From an uncultured Flavobacteriaceae bacterium (GTDB taxonomy: Bacteria > Bacteroidota > Bacteroidia > Flavobacteriales > Flavobacteriaceae), in NCBI GenBank assembly GCA_947502635.1, contig CANNAN010000001.1:372001-436000 (forward strand): 64,000 nt of DNA, written 5' to 3'. Position 1 is the first letter of the stretch, and each line of letters starts with the position of its first letter. Shown one piece after another: positions 54,997 to 64,000 of the stretch. The notes under the pieces are model-generated. The model searched no databases. It was not told the origin of the DNA and saw only the letters and a program-made list of their open reading frames with translations. Made by a program: the position numbers and the translations under genes.

Positions 54997-55617
54997 TTAC
55001 TTATCTATTAATTCAAAAATGACACTAACATCATAGACATATTCCCCTATATTCAAATTATAGTATATAGGTTGATTTTTTATTTCGACGTTTATAAGAT
55101 TGTTATCCTCAATTTTTAGAATGCCTCCTAATTCTTTATTAGCAATTTCGGCTATAATTTTGGCTTGTTCTTTTGCGTTTTCGATGGCTTTAGCAATTAC
55201 AATTTGAGCTTCGTTTTTGGAAATAACTATAGAGTATCCGTTAGTAATAAGCTGTAAACCAAAAGATTTTGATTTTAAAAATCTATTAAACTTTTCTACA
55301 GAAGTTGTTTTAAAATTATACAATGTACCAGCTTTATCTTGGCTTAAATAAATATATCCACTAGGATCTTCTTTTAAATCAGCTAAAGAAAGTCCGTTTT
55401 GTTTCAAGGCATCATCATATCTAGATTTCATTTCTTTTAAAGATATAGCATCAGAGGAGTAACTGGAGTATGTAGCATTTAAAGAAACAGTACTTTTAAA
55501 AGTTAATTCTTTATCTATGTGAATAGCTCTTCCAGATACTTTAATTGTCTTTTTTTCTTGAGCTTTTCCTAAAAAAGGCATTAGAAAAAATATAAAAAAG
55601 TAGATTGTTTTTTTCAT
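54997..55617 (-). CDS. SIMPL-domain (DUF541) exported protein
   Basis: A 206-residue exported protein with signal peptide ending LGKAQ. The mature part follows the SIMPL/DUF541 layout: an opening KTIKVSGRAIHIDKELTF, a central helix-rich part and AIENAKEQAKIIAEIANKELGGILKIED, which matches the conserved A..A...A..LG....I...I helix-turn. It closes with strands ending YVYDVSVIFELIDK. Family members are periplasmic or surface proteins of poorly defined role. It is a separate unit: a terminator at 55644-55680 lies between it and the operon upstream on the same strand. Confidence 0.8.
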   Translation of the reverse strand: MKKTIYFFIFFLMPFLGKAQEKKTIKVSGRAIHIDKELTFKSTVSLNATYSSYSSDAISLKEMKSRYDDALKQNGLSLADLKEDPSGYIYLSQDKAGTLYNFKTTSVEKFNRFLKSKSFGLQLITNGYSIVISKNEAQIVIAKAIENAKEQAKIIAEIANKELGGILKIEDNNLINVEIKNQPIYYNLNIGEYVYDVSVIFELIDK

Positions 55618-55690: not shown

Positions 55691-56317
55691 TTATTCTGGA
55701 ATATTATATAATTCTAGAACTTCTTCATAAGATAATTTGGTGTAATCAACCTCCTTAATACTATTTTTACTGGTACCAGCACTGTTTGCTTGTACGCTTC
55801 CAGGAATAAGTATATAACGATATTGAGAGAAGTATACATTATTAAAAAGATCTTCAGCCCCAGTACCTGTTCTGGCAATGACTCTTATAATCCTAGCTTC
55901 ATCTATTCTATAGGAGTAAGTGACTTCATGTAAGCTATTACTAAGTATTGTTGCTAATTGGTATACCATATTTGAAGCCTCAGGAGGGAGCTTTCCATAT
56001 ACCAAAACGACACCTTTATTCATAATACCTTCATCAAGATCTGGGGCATCCATAGTAAAGGTTTCTGTTCCTGTAGGCATTTGTTGTGGAATTTCAGAGT
56101 CTATCCAGTCTGAATATATAACATTGGCAGATCCTGGGTTGCCTCGTTCTCCCTGTTCTCCTTGTAATCCTTGCTCACCTTGTAATCCCCGTTCTCCTTG
56201 TGGGCCAGTGTTTCCATCTTCTCCAGAACAGGACGTGAAAGAAAAGGTAAGGCTGACTACTAATACGAATACGTTAATTAATTTTAATACTTTCATAATT
56301 TTACTTTTTGGGTTCAT
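55691..56317 (-). CDS. Collagen-like (Gly-X-Y) lipoprotein
   Basis: A 208-residue lipoprotein: a signal ending FSFTSC, then directly about ten collagen-type Gly-X-Y triplets (GEDGNTGPQGERGLQGEQ and onward to ERGNPG), then a ~150-residue globular part I do not recognise (VIYSDWIDSEIPQQMPTGTETF, GVVLVYGKLPPEA, RIIRVIARTG). An alternative start eight residues in (56296) gives a shorter signal. Bacterial Gly-X-Y stretches form trimeric stalks, which fits a neighbour two genes upstream with trimer-forming YadA-type repeats. Last gene of the operon, 2 bp after the T9SS gene. Confidence 0.8.
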   Translation of the reverse strand: MNPKSKIMKVLKLINVFVLVVSLTFSFTSCSGEDGNTGPQGERGLQGEQGLQGEQGERGNPGSANVIYSDWIDSEIPQQMPTGTETFTMDAPDLDEGIMNKGVVLVYGKLPPEASNMVYQLATILSNSLHEVTYSYRIDEARIIRVIARTGTGAEDLFNNVYFSQYRYILIPGSVQANSAGTSKNSIKEVDYTKLSYEEVLELYNIPE

Positions 56318-56319
56318 AT

Positions 56320-56787
56320 TTATTTAATTACTATTTTTTTATGATACTTTTTGTTTATAGAATACATGTATAGGAGATAAACCCCTTTTGGTAATCTGTT
56401 AAAATTTATGCTATTTGTATTTGTTCTTTTTAAGACCTGTTTTCCTAAAAAATCATAGAGTTCCACTTTTTGTATAAATAGATTCGTTTTTATGTTTATA
56501 AAATCTGATGCAGGATTTGGATACACAATAATGTATATGTCTTTTTCTTTTATATGAATAGCTCCTAATGCGTTAAAATCGACGGAATTAATAAAACCTT
56601 CCGATACAGAAATAATACCTGTATCGAACTCTTGTACATGTACTTCTCCAACAGTGTATAAAATATCAATTCCATCTTCTATGGTTCTTGCTCCTCCGCT
56701 GTCGATACTAAAATTTGCAATGGTGGATTGAGCCTGAGAATATGCCAAAGCAGCTAGGGCGGTTATAATCGTTAAAAACAGTTTCAT
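56320..56787 (-). CDS. Small T9SS cargo protein with type A sorting domain
   Basis: A 155-residue secreted protein with signal peptide ending YSQAQ. A short mature N-terminal part (IANFSIDSGGARTIEDGIDILYTVGEVHV) is followed by a T9SS type A C-terminal sorting domain: IIVYPNPASDFINIKT, VELYDFLGKQVLKR, INFNRLPKGVYLLYMY and the final KKIVIK. The protein is almost all sorting domain. Similar small proteins occur next to S74/tail-fibre-type genes in Flavobacteriia. Its start overlaps the preceding gene by ATGA, so the two are translationally coupled. Confidence 0.85.
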   Translation of the reverse strand: MKLFLTIITALAALAYSQAQSTIANFSIDSGGARTIEDGIDILYTVGEVHVQEFDTGIISVSEGFINSVDFNALGAIHIKEKDIYIIVYPNPASDFINIKTNLFIQKVELYDFLGKQVLKRTNTNSINFNRLPKGVYLLYMYSINKKYHKKIVIK

Positions 56788-59045
56788 TGTTCTACTGTTT
56801 TTAGTTGTTCTTCTAATATTTTTATGCGCGTATCCATTGTCTTTAATTCTGCCAATTCCGATGTTAAATTTTCTACCTTTAACTTTTGATTATTAATAAT
56901 ATCCTGTTGGTCTTGTATGGCTTTAATGAGTACAGGAATTAAATCGGCATAGTAAACACCAAGTCTATCGTTTTTCCCTTTTGCATCTGGCTTTATAACC
57001 ACTTCTGGTATAATTTCAAGTAGATTTTGAGCGATTAAGCCTAATTTTGTATCATTATTAGATTTTGTTTTCCAATTGAAACTGACTGGATTTAACAGTA
57101 AAACTTCATCTAAACCATAACCAATTGGTTCTATATTGGTTTTGTCGCGTCTATCTGAAGTATTAATAGTACCATCCACAGACCAGACTGCTTGCCATCT
57201 ATATGTTTGGTCTCCCAAGGCCATCACACTATCTTCATCTGGTAATAAACTGGCATTAAAAGAAAGTTGATTACTTCCTGTATCTTCTATGGTTTCTGTT
57301 CCTATTTTTAAGATTCCATCAATATGTAAGCGTTCATCTGGTGTATTGATACCTAGCCCTAAATTGCCATTTTTTAATACAGTCAAGGCGTCACTTCTAT
57401 TATCATATGTTCCATTACCAATTGTAAATAATGGGTCAGTGGCAACCCATTCTTCAGAATTACCAAAAGGTATATTATAACGCCCAATTACCATTTGATT
57501 ATAAGCTTGAGCATTTATTTGAAACCCTAGAGAAAATGAGGAATTTCCAGATGCAATTCCTCCTCTCGCGAATGAACTCCGCCCTGAAGCTGCTCCCCCA
57601 AGAGCGACTGAAAAATCTCCAGAAGCTGTTCCTCCTAGAGCTCTTGACCGATATCCAGAAGCTCTGCTTTCGTGCCCAATAGCTAGGGATTTTTCTCCAG
57701 ATGCCTCTGGACGTTCTCCTATGGCAATTGAATTATCTCCAGAAGCTTTTGCTCCATATCCCATTGCTATTGCATTAAGCCCAGAAGCTTCTGTATTAAG
57801 TCCCATCGAAGTTGTGTTCTCACCAGAAGCCATGGTTTGATTTCCCATGGCCGTGGCATTTTCACCCGAAGCAATGGTTTCATATCCTGTAGCTATCGAA
57901 TTATCTCCCGAAGCTTCTGTATTGAGACCCATTGCCGTTGCGTTCTCTCCTGAAGCAATGGTCTGGTTTCCCATGGCTATTGTATAATCTCCCGAAGCTT
58001 CTGTATTAAGTCCCATCGAAGTTGTGTTCTCACCAGAAGCCATGGTTTGATTTCCCATAGCTGTTGCATTACTTCCTGAAGCAACTGTTGCATGTCCCAT
58101 AGCCGTTGCATTGATCCCTGAAGCAACTGTTGTATGTCCCATAGTCGTTGCATTGACTCCTGAAGCAATTGTTGTGTTTCCCATAGCTGTTGAATACACA
58201 CTAGAAGCTTCTGTTAAGTTTCCCATAGTAATTGATCCGTATCCTGAAGCTTCCGTATCTACTCCCATGCTTATAGCATTAATACCCGAAGCTTCAGTAT
58301 TGAGTCCCATAGATAGTGATGATTCGCCTGAAGCTTTTGTCCCAAATCCTAATGCTATTGAATAATTTCCTGAAGCAACATTATTAAGCCCTATAGCCGT
58401 TGAAATATTCCCAGAAGCCATGGTTTGAAACCCCATGCTTGTTGAATTATCACCTGAGGCTATTATTTTATTTCCTAAAGCAACAGCATACGTTCCAGTT
58501 GCTCCGTATATATTTGAAGGCACATCAGAGTGGCTTAAATCAACAGCTTTATTTCCCATATTGCCATAGTTATTGGCGTCTTGTCCTATTAATCGCCATC
58601 CTTTTCCATCAATTTCATTTGTTTTACCATTGATAGCATCTATAGTTTCTAAACCAGTAACATTAGCAGCTGTGTTAGCATGTTTTGCATAAGGAACATT
58701 CATAAACTGTGTCGTCCCTAAATCTACCAAGCCATTGCCTATATCTATTTGAACGTTTAAATAATGGGCATCAATTCCCCAATTGATTAAGTTAAAATTA
58801 CCAGATATAGATTCGCCCTCTCCAATGTTTACAATTACAACACCATTGGCATCTGTAGTAGGTAAATGTGTTTCTTTATATATGTTTGTTGCATCTTGCA
58901 GTATTGTAAACTGAATCTCGATAGGGGTATTAATAATAATTTTACCATTTTTATCTTTAATTAGAGCTTTATAATTAATACCGCTTTGAGAGAAACCTAA
59001 AGTTCCTGTTATTAATATAATTATAAGTATAATTTTTGCTTTCAT
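56784..59045 (-). CDS. YadA-head-type repeat fibre protein with S74 intramolecular chaperone domain
   Basis: An exported fibre-like protein. Start taken at MKAKIILIIILITG (59045), giving a clean signal peptide ending GFSQ; Met codons at 59051 and 59072 are alternatives. An N-terminal domain (YKALIKDKNGKIII... to MNVPYAKHA) common in Bacteroidota surface fibres is followed by about 23 head repeats of the form ASG-x-N-x-x-A-M-G-x-x-T, as in YadA/Hep_Hag left-handed beta-rolls. The C-terminus carries a tail-fibre S74 chaperone-like domain (SDRRDKTNIEPIGYGLDEVL, NPVSFNWK, LGLIAQNLLEIIPEVV) and a coiled coil. S74 domains direct trimerisation and may cleave themselves off. Third gene of its operon. 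Confidence 0.88.
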   Translation of the reverse strand: MKAKIILIIILITGTLGFSQSGINYKALIKDKNGKIIINTPIEIQFTILQDATNIYKETHLPTTDANGVVIVNIGEGESISGNFNLINWGIDAHYLNVQIDIGNGLVDLGTTQFMNVPYAKHANTAANVTGLETIDAINGKTNEIDGKGWRLIGQDANNYGNMGNKAVDLSHSDVPSNIYGATGTYAVALGNKIIASGDNSTSMGFQTMASGNISTAIGLNNVASGNYSIALGFGTKASGESSLSMGLNTEASGINAISMGVDTEASGYGSITMGNLTEASSVYSTAMGNTTIASGVNATTMGHTTVASGINATAMGHATVASGSNATAMGNQTMASGENTTSMGLNTEASGDYTIAMGNQTIASGENATAMGLNTEASGDNSIATGYETIASGENATAMGNQTMASGENTTSMGLNTEASGLNAIAMGYGAKASGDNSIAIGERPEASGEKSLAIGHESRASGYRSRALGGTASGDFSVALGGAASGRSSFARGGIASGNSSFSLGFQINAQAYNQMVIGRYNIPFGNSEEWVATDPLFTIGNGTYDNRSDALTVLKNGNLGLGINTPDERLHIDGILKIGTETIEDTGSNQLSFNASLLPDEDSVMALGDQTYRWQAVWSVDGTINTSDRRDKTNIEPIGYGLDEVLLLNPVSFNWKTKSNNDTKLGLIAQNLLEIIPEVVIKPDAKGKNDRLGVYYADLIPVLIKAIQDQQDIINNQKLKVENLTSELAELKTMDTRIKILEEQLKTVEQ
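57527..58490 (-). repeat. 42-bp tandem repeat array encoding 14-residue YadA-type head repeats
   Basis: About twenty 42-bp units followed by three 33-36-bp units, within the fibre gene. The motif is ASG-x-x-x-x-x-x-G. A 65-bp stretch at 57784-57848 is identical to 57994-58058, exactly 210 bp (five units) apart, which points to recent internal duplication or gene conversion. Units vary in sequence but keep frame and length. Confidence 0.9.
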
Positions 59046-59097
59046 ATTCATTTTTTTTGTTTTGTAATCCATAAAAACAAGACTTACTTCAAGGTTT

Positions 59098-60291
59098 TCA
59101 ATTTAGATCTATAGCGTATAGTCCTATTTTATTTGTAATAGAGTCTCCTAGAATGAGATATAATGTTGCGGTTTGGGCATTAAAATCGATACCTCGAACA
59201 TAGCCATGAAAAGGTATATTGGATGTCTCGTTATTAAGGTAGTTTGTTGCTAAACTATAAGAGGCATCATGAGAAAACTGGACTATATTTGTTTTCTGGT
59301 CATTTTGTTTTGCTGTAAAAATGTGAATGTTTGCAGGGTCTGCAATAAATAATAAGTTTCGAGTTAATAAATAATCTAAGCCAGTAATACCAATAGCAGG
59401 ATCTAATTTTTCAATGAGATTTATATCCCTATTAAAAAACAAATCGATATCGTGATATTTTAAGCTACCTGTGTCTTTATTGTAAGTAACCATATCGTAG
59501 CTATTAATTATGTTAGCATGGCAGGTAACATTGCTAGAGACAGAAAAATCTGGACTTACAGATGTTGCTGGGTTTGCATTATTATAGATTGTATAAGTAT
59601 CTGTACTGGAATCTAGAGCAGATATTAAATTATTAGGACCATTAAGGTCTACAATAGCAAGTGAGGTCGCATCTCCTATGCCATATGCAACATCTTTTAC
59701 TGTAAATGTTTTCTGGTCAACCCTAATGTATCTTTGATTCTCGGTATCTGGAATGTAAATGTATTCATCGTCGGAATCAATATTCATCGTACCATTAGCA
59801 TCCACATTTATGATATTGCTAATATCAATATATTTAAAGGTATCATTTTCTATATCTATAGTAAAAATAACCTCATTTAATTTTTTAATATTAGGGTCTT
59901 TTACTAACCTTTTTGGTTCGCCACCAAGAGGTCCAAAAGAAACATCAAGAATTTCTTCTCCTTTGTATTGAAAACCTTCTGAACCGAAAAAATTATTACT
60001 AACCTTATTATTTTCGTAAGAGTATTTCGACAATAAAGGACCTGAATGTATACGTGTCATTCCAGAAGGATGAATATCTATGATATAGACAATAGAATCT
60101 TTTGAAAAATAAACCGCATCAAATAATGACTCACTGGATTGATCTTGTATGTGCCATAGACCTGTTAAGTTTAAAAAATAATCTCCCGACTCTATAGAAT
60201 CATCATTTTTTTTACATGCTAGAACACTAATAAGCATGATTATTGCAATTGCTAGTTTTTTGATAGTGTTAAGTTTAAAAATTAATTTCAC
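59098..60291 (-). CDS. Exported lipoprotein, beta-propeller-like, unknown function
   Basis: A 397-residue lipoprotein with signal ending ISVLAC (Cys26). I do not recognise a family. The mature chain is beta-rich, with repeated short strand pairs (MNIDSDDEYIYIPDTENQRYI, SLAIVDLNGPNNLISAL, LLTRNLLFIADPANIHIFTA, FHGYVRGIDFNAQTATLYLI) that read like blades of a small beta-propeller. No catalytic motif is evident. It lies 5 bp after the GH-A-like gene and 52 bp before the fibre gene, so it is in the same operon. A binding or structural role at the cell surface is the simplest guess. Confidence 0.7.
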   Translation of the reverse strand: MKLIFKLNTIKKLAIAIIMLISVLACKKNDDSIESGDYFLNLTGLWHIQDQSSESLFDAVYFSKDSIVYIIDIHPSGMTRIHSGPLLSKYSYENNKVSNNFFGSEGFQYKGEEILDVSFGPLGGEPKRLVKDPNIKKLNEVIFTIDIENDTFKYIDISNIINVDANGTMNIDSDDEYIYIPDTENQRYIRVDQKTFTVKDVAYGIGDATSLAIVDLNGPNNLISALDSSTDTYTIYNNANPATSVSPDFSVSSNVTCHANIINSYDMVTYNKDTGSLKYHDIDLFFNRDINLIEKLDPAIGITGLDYLLTRNLLFIADPANIHIFTAKQNDQKTNIVQFSHDASYSLATNYLNNETSNIPFHGYVRGIDFNAQTATLYLILGDSITNKIGLYAIDLN

Positions 60292-60296
60292 CTTTT

Positions 60297-62102
60297 TTAT
60301 TTTTTGATTAATACATTATTAATACTTGTAGTTTCTGTATGTGCTTTTAAAATATAAATGCCAGATGGTAGATGCGCTACATCTATTTTATTGGTGCTTT
60401 TTACTGTCATCATTTTTTTTCCTTCGATGGTGTAAACATCAAGTAGTTTTATCTTTTCAAGAGTATTGATGTTAACTGTATTTATAATTGGATTTGGAAA
60501 CATGCTAATAGCTGCTTTTGTTTTAAATTCTGTAGAGAGTGTGTTATGGTTAAATACACAATCTGTTATAGCATCATATTTTGGGGTATGTTCCTCATCC
60601 ATATATTCTTTTATTCCCCAACTACCAAATCTGCCGTAAGGTTGGTGCGAAGAAAAGAAAGAGAGCAGCCCCCCTTGAGTGGCCTCATACCAATAATTAA
60701 TATACTGGCAATACATATCTTCCATTCTAGGGTCTCTGTTGGCTTGCGTTAGTTTAACTGTTAATATGTCGTTTTGTTGATAGGTGCCTTGGGCCACTAA
60801 ATGCTGACCCGCTTCATAAGCTATAAGTTCTAGATTGTGTGTATTTGCAACAGCTTTATTTTGATCCATTCTATCATAGGCTGTAGCTAGCTCATTTTCT
60901 AATAAATCCAAAATTTCGGAAACCGTAATTGTGTTTATTTGTCCATTGTTTCCAATGGTATTTCCAATACCATTACCAAAATAAGGTGCTATGGCAATAG
61001 CATCTGCAGTGACTTGATTTGGATTGTAAAAAGGGTCGTTAAAGTAGCTTATTATTTCGTTGGTAACATTTCCGTTAGAAGCTCTGCCTGGAATAACTTT
61101 AATTAGACGATCGTTATTTTGAAAAACTGTTTCAAAACCGTGAAAAATGTCTGCCGATCGTTTGGCTGTATATTTTCTGGCTCTTTCCCATTGGGTGCCT
61201 GTATAGCCTAAATTTTCGGCAAAAACAGCAGTTTCATTATACTGTGTGAAAGTAGCATTCCATAGCTCGTTACTATACTCAATATAAATTTTAAGATTTG
61301 GGTTTAGGTTATCCCTAAAAAGAGTTGCTAATTCAGATATGTAGTTGTCATCTGCTCTATGCGGAATATTGATCCATGCATTTTTTTGTGTAGTATTACA
61401 TAAATCAATAACATATTCCCAAGCTACCCCAGCTTCAACAGCTTGAGTGACGTTGTTTTTAGGGGTTCTTTCGTTCCAAATTTCGTTTTCAGAAAAATTA
61501 GTTTCAGACCAGTCCATAAAACGAATGGTTTGAAAATCTTCGATAAAATCTAATATTTCAGTAGTAAATTGTTCTGTTTGATAATTATCTACATACTCGG
61601 GAAGTATAAACTTAATATCTGTTATCGGGTTTGCTTGTAAAGATTCTTCAATTTCTATAAACACCCTTCCTTGAGTAGCGTCTACAGGGATCAGTACATC
61701 TATTGGAGTTGTGTATACGGCTTCGGTTGCTGCGCCCCAAACGCGAACTTGTCCGCTACCAGAAACGATAAGACGATATGTTCCTGATGGATTATGGCCA
61801 TTTGAATCTGTAAATAAAATGGCTCTTGCAATTTGGGGAGGATCTATTCCATTATCAAAAGGAATTACGGTTGGATACCCGTTTTCATCAACAGGAATTT
61901 CAACACCACTATTCCAAACAGAACCAGGAGAAGGTTCGTGTACGACCCATGCTCTGGACTGTTTGAAGGCATCGGTGAAAACATATTCTATTGAATAATA
62001 ATTTACGCCTATTAAATTAATCCCAGATTCTCTTTGTATTTGTGAATAGCAGTTGTAGGTATATATTAGTAGAAACGAAATAATAATTTTTCTTAAAATC
62101 AT
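60297..62102 (-). CDS. GH-A-like putative glycoside hydrolase with T9SS sorting domain
   Basis: An exported protein of about 600 residues. Start placed at MILRKIIISFLLIYTYN (62102): the signal peptide is then normal (ends CYSQ), and a longer reading from 62159 would run across the promoter box and part of the operator spacing. It has an N-terminal beta domain (to about 190), then a TIM-barrel-like region with YIEYSNELWN (Glu279, acid/base candidate) and LELIAYEAGQHL (Glu430, nucleophile candidate), a clan GH-A pattern. The C-terminal 80 residues are a T9SS sorting domain (ISMFPNPIINTVNINT, LPSGIYILKA). No exact GH family is assigned. First gene of the regulated operon. Confidence 0.72.
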   Translation of the reverse strand: MILRKIIISFLLIYTYNCYSQIQRESGINLIGVNYYSIEYVFTDAFKQSRAWVVHEPSPGSVWNSGVEIPVDENGYPTVIPFDNGIDPPQIARAILFTDSNGHNPSGTYRLIVSGSGQVRVWGAATEAVYTTPIDVLIPVDATQGRVFIEIEESLQANPITDIKFILPEYVDNYQTEQFTTEILDFIEDFQTIRFMDWSETNFSENEIWNERTPKNNVTQAVEAGVAWEYVIDLCNTTQKNAWINIPHRADDNYISELATLFRDNLNPNLKIYIEYSNELWNATFTQYNETAVFAENLGYTGTQWERARKYTAKRSADIFHGFETVFQNNDRLIKVIPGRASNGNVTNEIISYFNDPFYNPNQVTADAIAIAPYFGNGIGNTIGNNGQINTITVSEILDLLENELATAYDRMDQNKAVANTHNLELIAYEAGQHLVAQGTYQQNDILTVKLTQANRDPRMEDMYCQYINYWYEATQGGLLSFFSSHQPYGRFGSWGIKEYMDEEHTPKYDAITDCVFNHNTLSTEFKTKAAISMFPNPIINTVNINTLEKIKLLDVYTIEGKKMMTVKSTNKIDVAHLPSGIYILKAHTETTSINNVLIKK

Positions 62103-62128: not shown

Positions 62129-62193
62129 CAAAACTAATTTGAGGCTTATAAAATGGCATGGTATATTGTTTCGGTAATAAGCACTATTGTTTC
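62129..62193 (-). promoter_or_regulatory. AraC-type tandem operator and promoter of the five-gene surface operon
   Basis: On the minus strand, GAAACAATAG begins at 62193 and GAAACAATA begins again 21 bp later (62172-62164). Then come 27 nt and the -7 box TAGTTTTG (62136-62129), 26 bp before the start codon. The same layout, with the same 21-bp period and 27-nt gap, precedes the gene at 63694. The paired half-sites suit an AraC-family dimer. There is no good -33 TTG, as in activator-dependent promoters. Confidence 0.8.
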
Positions 62194-62212
62194 AAAAGGC
62201 TACAAATGAATG

Positions 62213-63694
62213 CTACTGTTTAATAAACTTGAGTGTTGTTACCTTATTGATTGAGAGAAGTTTAATAAGGTATATGCCTTTTGTGTAATGACTTGTATCT
62301 ATATTTAGATTTTGGGTATTGGTATGGGTTTTCGAGTCTATTAGTTTTCCTAGGGCATCATATATATTTAGGCTAACTGGGGTGCTAGCTGCATTTAAAT
62401 TCAATGTAATATGACCACTGGTTGGATTCGGGTATATTGAAAAAGCCTTACCAAAATCATTGCCCTGGGTACTCAATACATCAAGGTTACTATAAATGCG
62501 AGCATGCCCTGAATTGATACCGCCAGCATCGTTTAAATTTGCTCCTATGGCTAAAATACTTCCGTCGTCACTTATACTTATTGAACGGCCTGAACGATCA
62601 CTAAGAGCTTCTCCATCTATGTCGTTATCTATTTGTACCCAATTGGACGATTGGTTTTTGTACACTCTAACGTGTCCAGCATCTATATCGGTTCCATCAT
62701 TAAAATAACCACCTACAGCTACGATATCTCCCTCACCATTTAGACTTATTGAGATACCAAAATCGTCACCTGAACCTTCCCCGTCGATATCGCTCCCTAT
62801 TTGTACCCAAGTCCCTGATTGATTTTCGAACACACGTGCGTGCCCAATACTATTATTATCGATAGCACCAACGGCTACAATAGTGCCTTCGTTATTTAAA
62901 CTTACCGAAATTCCGAAGCGGTCATTGTTGGCTTCCCCATCAATGTCGCTCCCTATTTGTACCCAAGTCCCTAATTGATTTTCGTAAACCCGAACTTGTC
63001 CGTTGCCAGATCCAGCCCCATCATTAAAAGGTGCTCCTATAGCAACTATACTCCCGTCTTGATTTAAACTTACAGAATAACCTGAATTGTCGTCTGCTGC
63101 TTCTCCATCAATATCATCGCCAATTTGAGTCCAGATTCCCGATAGATTTTCATAAATACGCACATGTCCACTGTTTCCAATAGTTGTATCATTATCAGGT
63201 GCTCCAATGGCAACTATGTTTCCATCACCGCTTAAACTAACAGAAAACCCCGAGTGGTCTGATAAATTTTCACCAATAATACTGCTGCCTATTTGTGTCC
63301 AGTTTCCCAGTTCATTTTTAAATACCCGAGCTTGCCCAACTTCAAATTTTCCTGGAAGAGTATGGTCTGGTGCTCCAATGGCAATTGTAGAACCATCATC
63401 ACTTAAACTTATTGAAAAACCAGATTTGTCACTTGATGACTCACCAGATATATCATTTCCTAACTGAACCCAGTTTCCCGATTGGTTTTCATAAATACGA
63501 ACTTGGCCTGAAGTGCTTCCAGCTTCACTGTTAAAAGGGGCTGCTATGGCTACGATGGTGCCATCGGCATTTAAACTTAATGAATGGCCAAACTGTTCAT
63601 TGTCGGTTTCTCCGTCTATATCTAATCCAGATTGCACCCATTGTCCAAAAGTTATAAAAGGAATAATTAAAGCTAAATGTGTAATTTTTTTCAT
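62213..63694 (-). CDS. FG-GAP/integrin-alpha-like repeat protein with T9SS sorting domain
   Basis: A 493-residue secreted protein with signal peptide ending ITFGQ. It contains seven repeats of about 55 residues of the pattern IDGEaxxDxxGxSxSLxxDGxIVAIGAPxNDxxGxxxGxVRVYexQxGxWxQI, which form an integrin-type beta-propeller with acidic loops. The C-terminus is a T9SS type A sorting domain (AFSIYPNPTSGHITLNLN, LNIYDALGKLI, YTKGIYLIKLL). The repeats are also similar at DNA level. It is monocistronic and lies between its own copy of the tandem operator and the five-gene operon. Probably a surface adhesin or binding protein; no catalytic residues seen. Confidence 0.88.
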   Translation of the reverse strand: MKKITHLALIIPFITFGQWVQSGLDIDGETDNEQFGHSLSLNADGTIVAIAAPFNSEAGSTSGQVRIYENQSGNWVQLGNDISGESSSDKSGFSISLSDDGSTIAIGAPDHTLPGKFEVGQARVFKNELGNWTQIGSSIIGENLSDHSGFSVSLSGDGNIVAIGAPDNDTTIGNSGHVRIYENLSGIWTQIGDDIDGEAADDNSGYSVSLNQDGSIVAIGAPFNDGAGSGNGQVRVYENQLGTWVQIGSDIDGEANNDRFGISVSLNNEGTIVAVGAIDNNSIGHARVFENQSGTWVQIGSDIDGEGSGDDFGISISLNGEGDIVAVGGYFNDGTDIDAGHVRVYKNQSSNWVQIDNDIDGEALSDRSGRSISISDDGSILAIGANLNDAGGINSGHARIYSNLDVLSTQGNDFGKAFSIYPNPTSGHITLNLNAASTPVSLNIYDALGKLIDSKTHTNTQNLNIDTSHYTKGIYLIKLLSINKVTTLKFIKQ

Positions 63695-63725
63695 AAGTAC
63701 TACTATAATATATGTTAAGTAGCAC

Positions 63726-63790
63726 CAAAACTATAGTGTAGACCAAAAGGAGGATTACACTATTGTTTCTAATGTATGACCTATTGTTTC
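63726..63790 (-). promoter_or_regulatory. AraC-type tandem operator and promoter of the FG-GAP T9SS gene
   Basis: On the minus strand: GAAACAATAG starting at 63790, a second GAAACAATA at 63769-63761 (21-bp period), 27 nt, then the -7 box TAGTTTTG at 63733-63726, 31 bp before the start codon at 63694. It matches the layout at 62129-62193 base for base in the conserved parts and in all spacings. The distal half-site here also sits in the palindrome CTATTGTTTCAATAG (63781-63795). Confidence 0.82.
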
Positions 63791-63805: not shown

Positions 63806-64000
63806 TTAGTTTTGAATGTGGTTTTCTCTAAAAGAAGTAGGGGAGACGCCAACAACTTTTTTAAATGCTTTAGAAAAATATGTAGGTGATTCAAAGCCTG
63901 TTTCATAAGCTATTTCACTTACATGGAGCGATGTTGTAGCTAGAATTTCTTTGGCTTTCTCAATACGGACAAAATTGATGTAATTGGTTATGGACTGTCC
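63806..64000 (-). CDS. AraC-family transcriptional regulator, C-terminal HTH, cut by window edge
   Basis: The last 64 codons of a gene that enters from beyond the right edge. They read GQSITNYINFVRIEKAKEI, then LHVSEIAYETGFESPTYFS and KAFKKVVGVSPTSFREN: the second half of an AraC/XylS DNA-binding domain. It may be a free AraC regulator or the end of an HTCS; the rest of the gene is needed to tell. It lies 15 bp above the first tandem operator, in the same direction, and is the obvious candidate to bind it. Confidence 0.92.
   Translation of the reverse strand, partial: GQSITNYINFVRIEKAKEILATTSLHVSEIAYETGFESPTYFSKAFKKVVGVSPTSFRENHIQN

Follow-up and report, generated by a model that had tools for sequence, protein, structure and literature searches.

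Activators of the AraC/XylS type occupy direct half-sites approximately 21 bp apart that adjoin the promoter. Hybrid two-component systems (HTCSs) make up a major regulator class of the Bacteroidota; in the parts of the literature available to us, their operators are reported from Bacteroides glycan loci and are mostly predictions. The accessible text of one such study (PMC3878776, which we take to be Ravcheev et al. 2013) predicts that HTCS operators in Bacteroides thetaiotaomicron are direct repeats spaced 21 bp apart on average, suggestive of a dimer on one face of the DNA and located upstream of genes in the regulator's own cluster; the targets studied there are SusC/SusD polysaccharide loci. 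A second study, the accessible portion of which deals with Bacteroides HTCSs of glycan loci and not with operator letters, ties the S/CHIP motif of the receiver to phosphorylation-controlled DNA binding (PMC11253607).

The window (the whole 64-kb stretch of DNA analysed here) contains the pattern GAAACAATAG-N11-GAAACAATA-N27-TAGTTTTG twice, exactly and on the minus strand, next to the end of an HTCS gene. Gene content suggests that the DNA comes from a member of the Flavobacteriaceae. The features of the locus are as follows (all on the minus strand; protein families from Pfam).

63806..64000, minus: 3' end of the HTCS gene; the whole gene (C1:435806-439672, 1288 aa) extends past the window
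63782..63790, minus: operator 2, first half-site GAAACAATA (+G); predicted start at -69
63761..63769, minus: operator 2, second half-site GAAACAATA; predicted start at -48
63726..63733, minus: -7 box of promoter 2, TAGTTTTG; fits the TAnnTTTG box of Flavobacterium psychrophilum
62213..63694, minus: target 1, 493-aa FG-GAP repeat protein with a T9SS C-terminal signal
62185..62193, minus: operator 1, first half-site GAAACAATA (+G); exact tandem
62164..62172, minus: operator 1, second half-site GAAACAATA; exact tandem
62129..62136, minus: -7 box of promoter 1, TAGTTTTG
60297..62102, minus: target 2, 601-aa protein with a T9SS signal; first gene of the presumed operon
59098..60291, minus: 397-aa protein without a Pfam match; presumed second operon gene, after a 5-nt gap
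56784..59072, minus: YadA-head / Peptidase_S74 protein; presumed operon
56320..56787, minus: 155-aa T9SS cargo protein; presumed operon
55691..56317, minus: collagen-like protein with a lipoprotein-like start; presumed operon
54997..55617, minus: SIMPL-domain protein; possible last operon gene, after a 73-nt gap

The operators of the window and those predicted in B. thetaiotaomicron are alike in being direct repeats of about 21 bp, compatible with an inferred dimer on one DNA face, and in lying upstream of genes in the regulator's own cluster. Since 21-bp direct repeats are already predicted for HTCSs in the accessible text of PMC3878776, the tandem itself is of a known kind. The differences lie in the targets, which here are surface and T9SS proteins instead of SusC/SusD polysaccharide loci, and in two properties for which we found no counterpart in that text: a fixed register relative to the -7 box, and a rule linking residue 1214 of the regulator to base 3 of the half-site. 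A search of the open-access literature likewise returned no report of a fixed -7 register, of such a residue-base rule, or of an HTCS class dedicated to surface proteins. With AraC/XylS-type activators the HTCS of the window shares two helix-turn-helix (HTH) motifs per protomer, direct repeats and a promoter-adjacent site; unlike them, it is fused to a membrane sensor kinase and is paired with a Bacteroidota sigma-A promoter (-33/-7) in place of -35/-10.

A preliminary description of this DNA had placed the end of an AraC-type regulator gene 15 bp from the upstream operator. The distance is correct (the ORF ends at 63806), but the gene does not encode a free AraC protein: it is the end of the 1288-aa HTCS. 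Pfam domains along the chain are Reg_prop propeller repeats, HisKA, HATPase_c, Response_reg and HTH_18, and it is because sensor, HisKA, HATPase, receiver and AraC-type HTH share a single polypeptide that we classify the regulator as an HTCS. Its PDB matches include solved HTCS sensors and a receiver-HTH chain. The features of receiver and DNA-binding control described for Bacteroides HTCSs in the accessible portion of PMC11253607 recur here: a SHIP motif at residue 1107, and the Asp and Lys expected around the recognition helix, which were read by eye. On the basis of these three features, DNA binding released by phosphorylation is the likely mode of action.

Tandem 1 spans 62193-62164 and tandem 2 spans 63790-63761, each with a half-site period of 21 bp. 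In both promoters TAGTTTTG follows 27 nt past the second 9-mer (at 62136-62129 and 63733-63726), and the ATGs at 62102 and 63694 lie 26 and 31 nt further downstream; measurement thus returned every spacing given in the preliminary description, including the identical gap to the -7 box. The longer start proposed for target 2 by the ORF tool (62159) sits upstream of the -7 box, so that the start at 62102 is the one that fits. The tandem occurs twice in the real window and not once in 100 shuffled windows. In the whole genome (5,439,710 bases) the exact tandem has just these two copies, both beside the HTCS gene and both in register, with no sign of random scatter away from promoter spacing; the reversed pattern has none. 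When up to three mismatches were allowed, the genome yielded 75 matches compared with 59 for the reversed pattern. A larger regulon built on the same letters is accordingly not supported, as no clear wider regulon emerges from this comparison.

Identical half-sites and identical -7 boxes are also what would be left by the recent duplication of one promoter block, and two copies could in principle arise by chance. However, the spacers of the two promoters agree at 4/12 and 9/27 positions, about as well as unrelated DNA, and the 26 bases past the -7 box agree at three positions; so little agreement shows that the promoters are not a copied block. Base composition predicts 0.0017 tandems in 5.44 Mb, and the arrangement is kept in other species (below). 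We give duplication or chance next to no credence.

In Flavobacterium psychrophilum the TAnnTTTG box spans -12 to -5 according to the accessible part of PMC9723704, and with the boxes of the window placed likewise the half-sites are predicted to start at -69 and -48. In both promoters N27 sets the downstream half-site at one constant distance, right beside the -33/-35 region, as is found for AraC-type activators; by eye, neither -33 region contains a TTTG at the usual distance. A fixed site directly upstream of -33 is the customary place for activators. This speaks against the notion that the tandem represses, or positions something else, with the HTCS as a repressor; so does BT1754, an HTCS described as an activator in the accessible text of PMC11501099. 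We consider repression very unlikely.

If the operator belongs to the regulator, then it should be found where the regulator's orthologues are found. The exact tandem is present in three of 60 genomes (own included), twice in each and close to the HTCS gene. The same three encode a close HTCS: the genome of the window (G000, 100% identity), G005 (94%) and G010 (75%); the next best match is 31%. G005 retains the gene order of the target operon. In G010 the FG-GAP gene was not found at the locus; two homologues of the 601-aa gene (66-67%), paralogues of each other, carry an operator apiece, with a single mismatch in one case, and their boxes, at N27, read TAATTTCG, which departs from the consensus at one position. 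Directly behind the HTCS gene (L128:4687) G010 has another exact tandem with no -7 box at 27 nt, perhaps an orphaned operator at the place where relatives have the FG-GAP gene that G010 lacks there.

A scan of the family found the exact tandem in 4/397 genomes (one match to the reversed pattern). Of the three genomes other than our own, G369 alone has it in promoter position. The tandems of G385 and G326 were set aside as chance matches because neither has a -7 box at 27 nt and the one in G326 falls inside an ORF. G369 belongs to another genus; its HTCS orthologue (44% identity) is divergent from the target operon. Even so, neither the half-sites nor the N27 gap have changed, and the box is TAGCTTTG. 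That operon encodes two T9SS proteins and a 58% identical homologue of target 1 under the same operator. Orthologues in G189 (44%), G317 (39%) and G107 (40%), and a homologue in G411 (33% over its length), are accompanied by in-register half-sites GAAACAATT/GGAACAATA, GAAACATGC or GAAACATAC/GGAACAATA, and GGAACAATA/GGAACAATT; the -7 boxes of G317, G107 and G411, like that of G010, carry one mismatch each. Altogether, six HTCS orthologues (39-94% identity) are accompanied by the operator in an unchanged register; in three of these cases the -7 box has one mismatch. The operator is therefore kept in register alongside the regulator's orthologues despite changes of target gene or orientation, and this, with the differing spacers, bears out the original reading of conserved function in place of a copied block. 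In G189 one in-register operator (L177:7299) precedes the HTCS gene itself, which suggests autoregulation in that genome, and a second is on another contig; upstream of the HTCS gene of the window (locus L004) no tandem with up to three mismatches was found.

Beyond the orthologues, more distant HTCSs at 32-34% identity (G153, G428, G320) are associated with half-sites in other letters, of the GTTACATA type, at unchanged period and distance. We took 97 further loci with HTCS homologues and the 305 intergenic, exact TAnnTTTG boxes upstream of genes within them. GnnACA occurring twice with a period of 21, the second G being 36 nt before the box, was found at seven boxes; each of the other 1,239 combinations of period and offset was found at one box at most. 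Written as GnnACA-N15-GnnACA-N30-TAnnTTTG, this grammar occurs at 131 places in 90 of the 397 family genomes, compared with 14 matches to the reversed pattern, and the aligned places share more than the pattern demands, roughly TTGTTACAT.TGT..TA in both halves. From the 129 places outside our own genome 40 were drawn at random: at 12 of them the end of an HTCS match lies on the same strand as the -7 box, 81-190 bp before it, an HTCS lies within 7.1 kb at 21, and no HTCS was found at the other 19 in the flanks examined (up to approximately 7 kb, some ending at contig ends). One of the 40 lies within an ORF.

The grammar has its bounds. A scan of 227 genomes of the class gave, beyond the two places of our own genome, 24 places in 13 further genomes against 10 controls, and class-wide generality is not supported, half of the matches being in two genomes; the case for the strict grammar outside the family is weak. 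The two genomes, G600 and G629, belong to one other family (f47) and hold eight and four grammar matches, 12 of the 24 outside our own genome. A plain search for periodicity near -7 boxes found period 21 at no box in set B, four in set C and five in set D, where other periods reached up to one, four and two boxes, respectively; weak outside the discovery set, it is a blunter instrument than the registered GnnACA test. Set C comprises 47 loci whose HTCSs mostly have -YRK instead of -HRK helices. Its mean-match grid has no peak at period 21, although two of its loci (L197 and L200) contain a period-21 repeat with other letters at about the same distance. Because set C as a group shows no such grammar, the grammar is not general to all HTCSs.

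Two observations concern the neighborhoods of these sites. Behind several HTCSs or operator-like sites comes a protein of about 300 aa whose early residues include AISFFSTS; the example at L129:9484-10389 has GAF and AraC-type HTH domains, and similar starts occur in L130, L183, L186 and L277. Large and small chains of ribonucleotide reductase (three Pfam members each) lie a few genes downstream of operator-like sites at three of the 40 random places, perhaps L278, L280 and L292 judging by gene lengths, which may reflect shared synteny or chance.

In nearly all HTCSs beside grammar sites the first recognition helix reads SR-X-QLHRK. In the discovery rows X (residue 1214, a Ser in the HTCS of the window) is Met beside GTTACA sites and Ser or Thr beside G[A/G]AACA sites. 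With this prediction fixed beforehand, we turned to 40 unused places chosen to hold both kinds of site, of which 21 have a same-strand HTCS ORF that ends -60 to 300 bp upstream. All 21 agreed: T at base 3 was accompanied by Met in 14/14 rows, and A by Ser or Thr in 7/7 (Fisher p 8.6e-6). Over 49 rows, which take in the discovery rows, the near-copies L004/L127, L178/L179 and L304/L306, and sites entered by hand for L128, L165, L177, L178, L179 and L187, base 3 of the second half-site agrees without exception (29 Met-T, 20 other-A). Base 3 of the first half-site agrees in 47; the exceptions are L186 (Thr with T) and L310 (Ser with C), the latter an AraC-type HTH match not shown to be an HTCS. 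Among 14 further sites in other loci, the four with an adjacent HTCS all pair Met with T. Base 3 of the half-site follows residue 1214: Met with T, Ser or Thr with A.

These data bear on whether the HTCS is a mere neighbor of an operator read by another AraC-type protein, either a free AraC or a GAF-AraC protein. There is no shortage of candidates: the genome contains 31 HTCS-like matches, and proteins that start like the GAF and HTH_18 protein of L129 lie directly downstream of some other HTCSs. Against this, the operator accompanies the orthologues of this HTCS even when genus and gene order change, and in every one of the 49 rows the recognition helix of the neighbor itself covaries with base 3 of the second half-site. 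A different reader is thus very unlikely.

Agreement between residue and base could also be a product of shared ancestry, Met-type and Ser/Thr-type lineages having inherited their operators in the absence of direct contact. On a tree built without the HTH the labels are strongly clustered, changing five times as compared with 15.7 times in shuffles. All five independent pairs agree, the resulting p of 0.0625 being the least possible; on a second tree (three odd rows dropped, four added) all four independent changes agree (p 0.125). With four to five independent residue changes the phylogenetic sign test cannot fall below p 0.0625. L322 was left off the tree for its length (its Thr and base A agree), and L288, L310 and L320 were left off the second for odd or very long branches. 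On the other side, every independent change is in the same direction, residue 1214 belongs to the first HTH's recognition helix, and its pairing with base 3 ranks first by mutual information (0.919 bits over 47 rows, L178 and L179 having been missed by the site finder). Permutations over the same positions reached a maximum of 0.80 bits, none of 60 attaining the observed value. The next observed pairs (0.867 and 0.856 bits) involve very variable residues; when each pair is compared with the mean of its own permutations, residue 1214 with base 3 exceeds that mean by 0.847 bits, clearly ahead of residue 1214 with base 2 (0.684) and the next pair (0.505). Shared ancestry as the whole cause of the agreement is possible, if somewhat doubtful, and is compatible with activation by the HTCS.

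The explanation that we strongly favor is that the adjacent HTCS binds both tandems as a dimer and activates the two surface-protein promoters. We infer from sequence the following course. The membrane-spanning chain (propeller sensor, histidine kinase, receiver, AraC-type DNA-binding domain) would respond to a ligand that is probably a glycan fragment. Once phosphorylated, it would bind as a dimer to two direct half-sites with a spacing of 21 bp, which begin at -69 and -48 on the same DNA face, with the first HTH of each protomer reading GnnACA and residue 1214 going with base 3. The downstream protomer, adjoining the -33 region, would recruit sigma-A polymerase to TAnnTTTG. Two promoters would be served, as far as genome scans show: that of the FG-GAP/T9SS gene and that of the presumed six-gene operon. 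With two such promoters, an operator that follows the regulator's orthologues and a base 3 that covaries with it, the suggestion of a small regulon of surface and T9SS proteins gains support.

The same association with surface proteins extends to other loci of this operator class. SusC-like genes lie within 6.5 kb of the HTCS end at 1/27 operator-class loci and at 24/47 other HTCS loci (Fisher p 2e-5); homologues of S74 proteins occur at 4/27 and 0/47, and collagen-like genes at 5/27 and 0/47, respectively, the 27 being a non-random set with some close relatives and some loci, L004 included, that are short on one side. The 91 proteins encoded downstream of the 40 random places (Pfam, E 0.001) include Collagen (8), Por_Secre_tail (8), DUF4412 (6), S74 (5) and SusD (3). 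At the locus itself, a SusC/SusD pair beside the regulator, the hallmark of a polysaccharide-utilization locus, was not found: L004, which covers 1.8 kb on the target side, has no SusC/SusD match up to 6.5 kb from the HTCS end, and there is none among the eight proteins that cover the target side to 54997. We think it fairly probable that the family possesses a distinct HTCS class, marked by SR-X-QLHRK, for surface-fibre-like, collagen-like and T9SS cargo genes in place of glycan uptake, using the rigid grammar GnnACA-N15-GnnACA-N30-TAnnTTTG, often just behind the regulator gene, with X setting the base (Met reads T, Ser/Thr reads A). If so, one residue sets one base, and triples of regulator, operator and target could therefore be read directly from genomes. 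Given a fixed register and such a rule, regulons could be assigned from sequence, and specificity would have a simple and decisive test. The findings also suggest a class of HTCS sensors whose output is cell-surface proteins (fibre-like, collagen-like, T9SS-exported) and not sugar uptake, a point relevant to how environmental members of the group sense surfaces and attach to them.

Six genes run on the same strand from 62102 downstream, separated by 5, 25, -4, 2 and 73 nt, and are presumed to form one operon of mostly surface proteins transcribed from promoter 1. A consensus scan for terminator-like sites gave six, compared with 4.8 in shuffles, and so does not help on this question. Por_Secre_tail, the T9SS sorting domain, is C-terminal in the products of 62213-63694, 60297-62102 and 56320-56787; the collagen-like protein matches Collagen at E 8.4e-6 and 25.9 bits, under the Pfam cut-off of 27.2.

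The 601-aa protein was examined further. In a family scan that scored three candidates per genome, and whose sample did not include G005 and G010, alignment among the matches listed was limited to the C-terminal part (residue 464 onward). Residues 27-516 have relatives on alphaproteobacterial and cyanobacterial plasmids, where they bear no Pfam or NCBIfam name; the plasmid relatives number 25 records (Rhizobium, roseobacters and a cyanobacterium among them), 11 of them at 80% coverage or more. A single-sequence structure model had a mean pLDDT of 36.1, too low for use. E279 (in SNE) and E430 (in YEGG/YEAG) are invariant in six aligned sequences, a pair of glutamates that would possibly fit a clan-A-like glycoside hydrolase. 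One homologue, in Shinella, adjoins a gene for polysaccharide biosynthesis/export.
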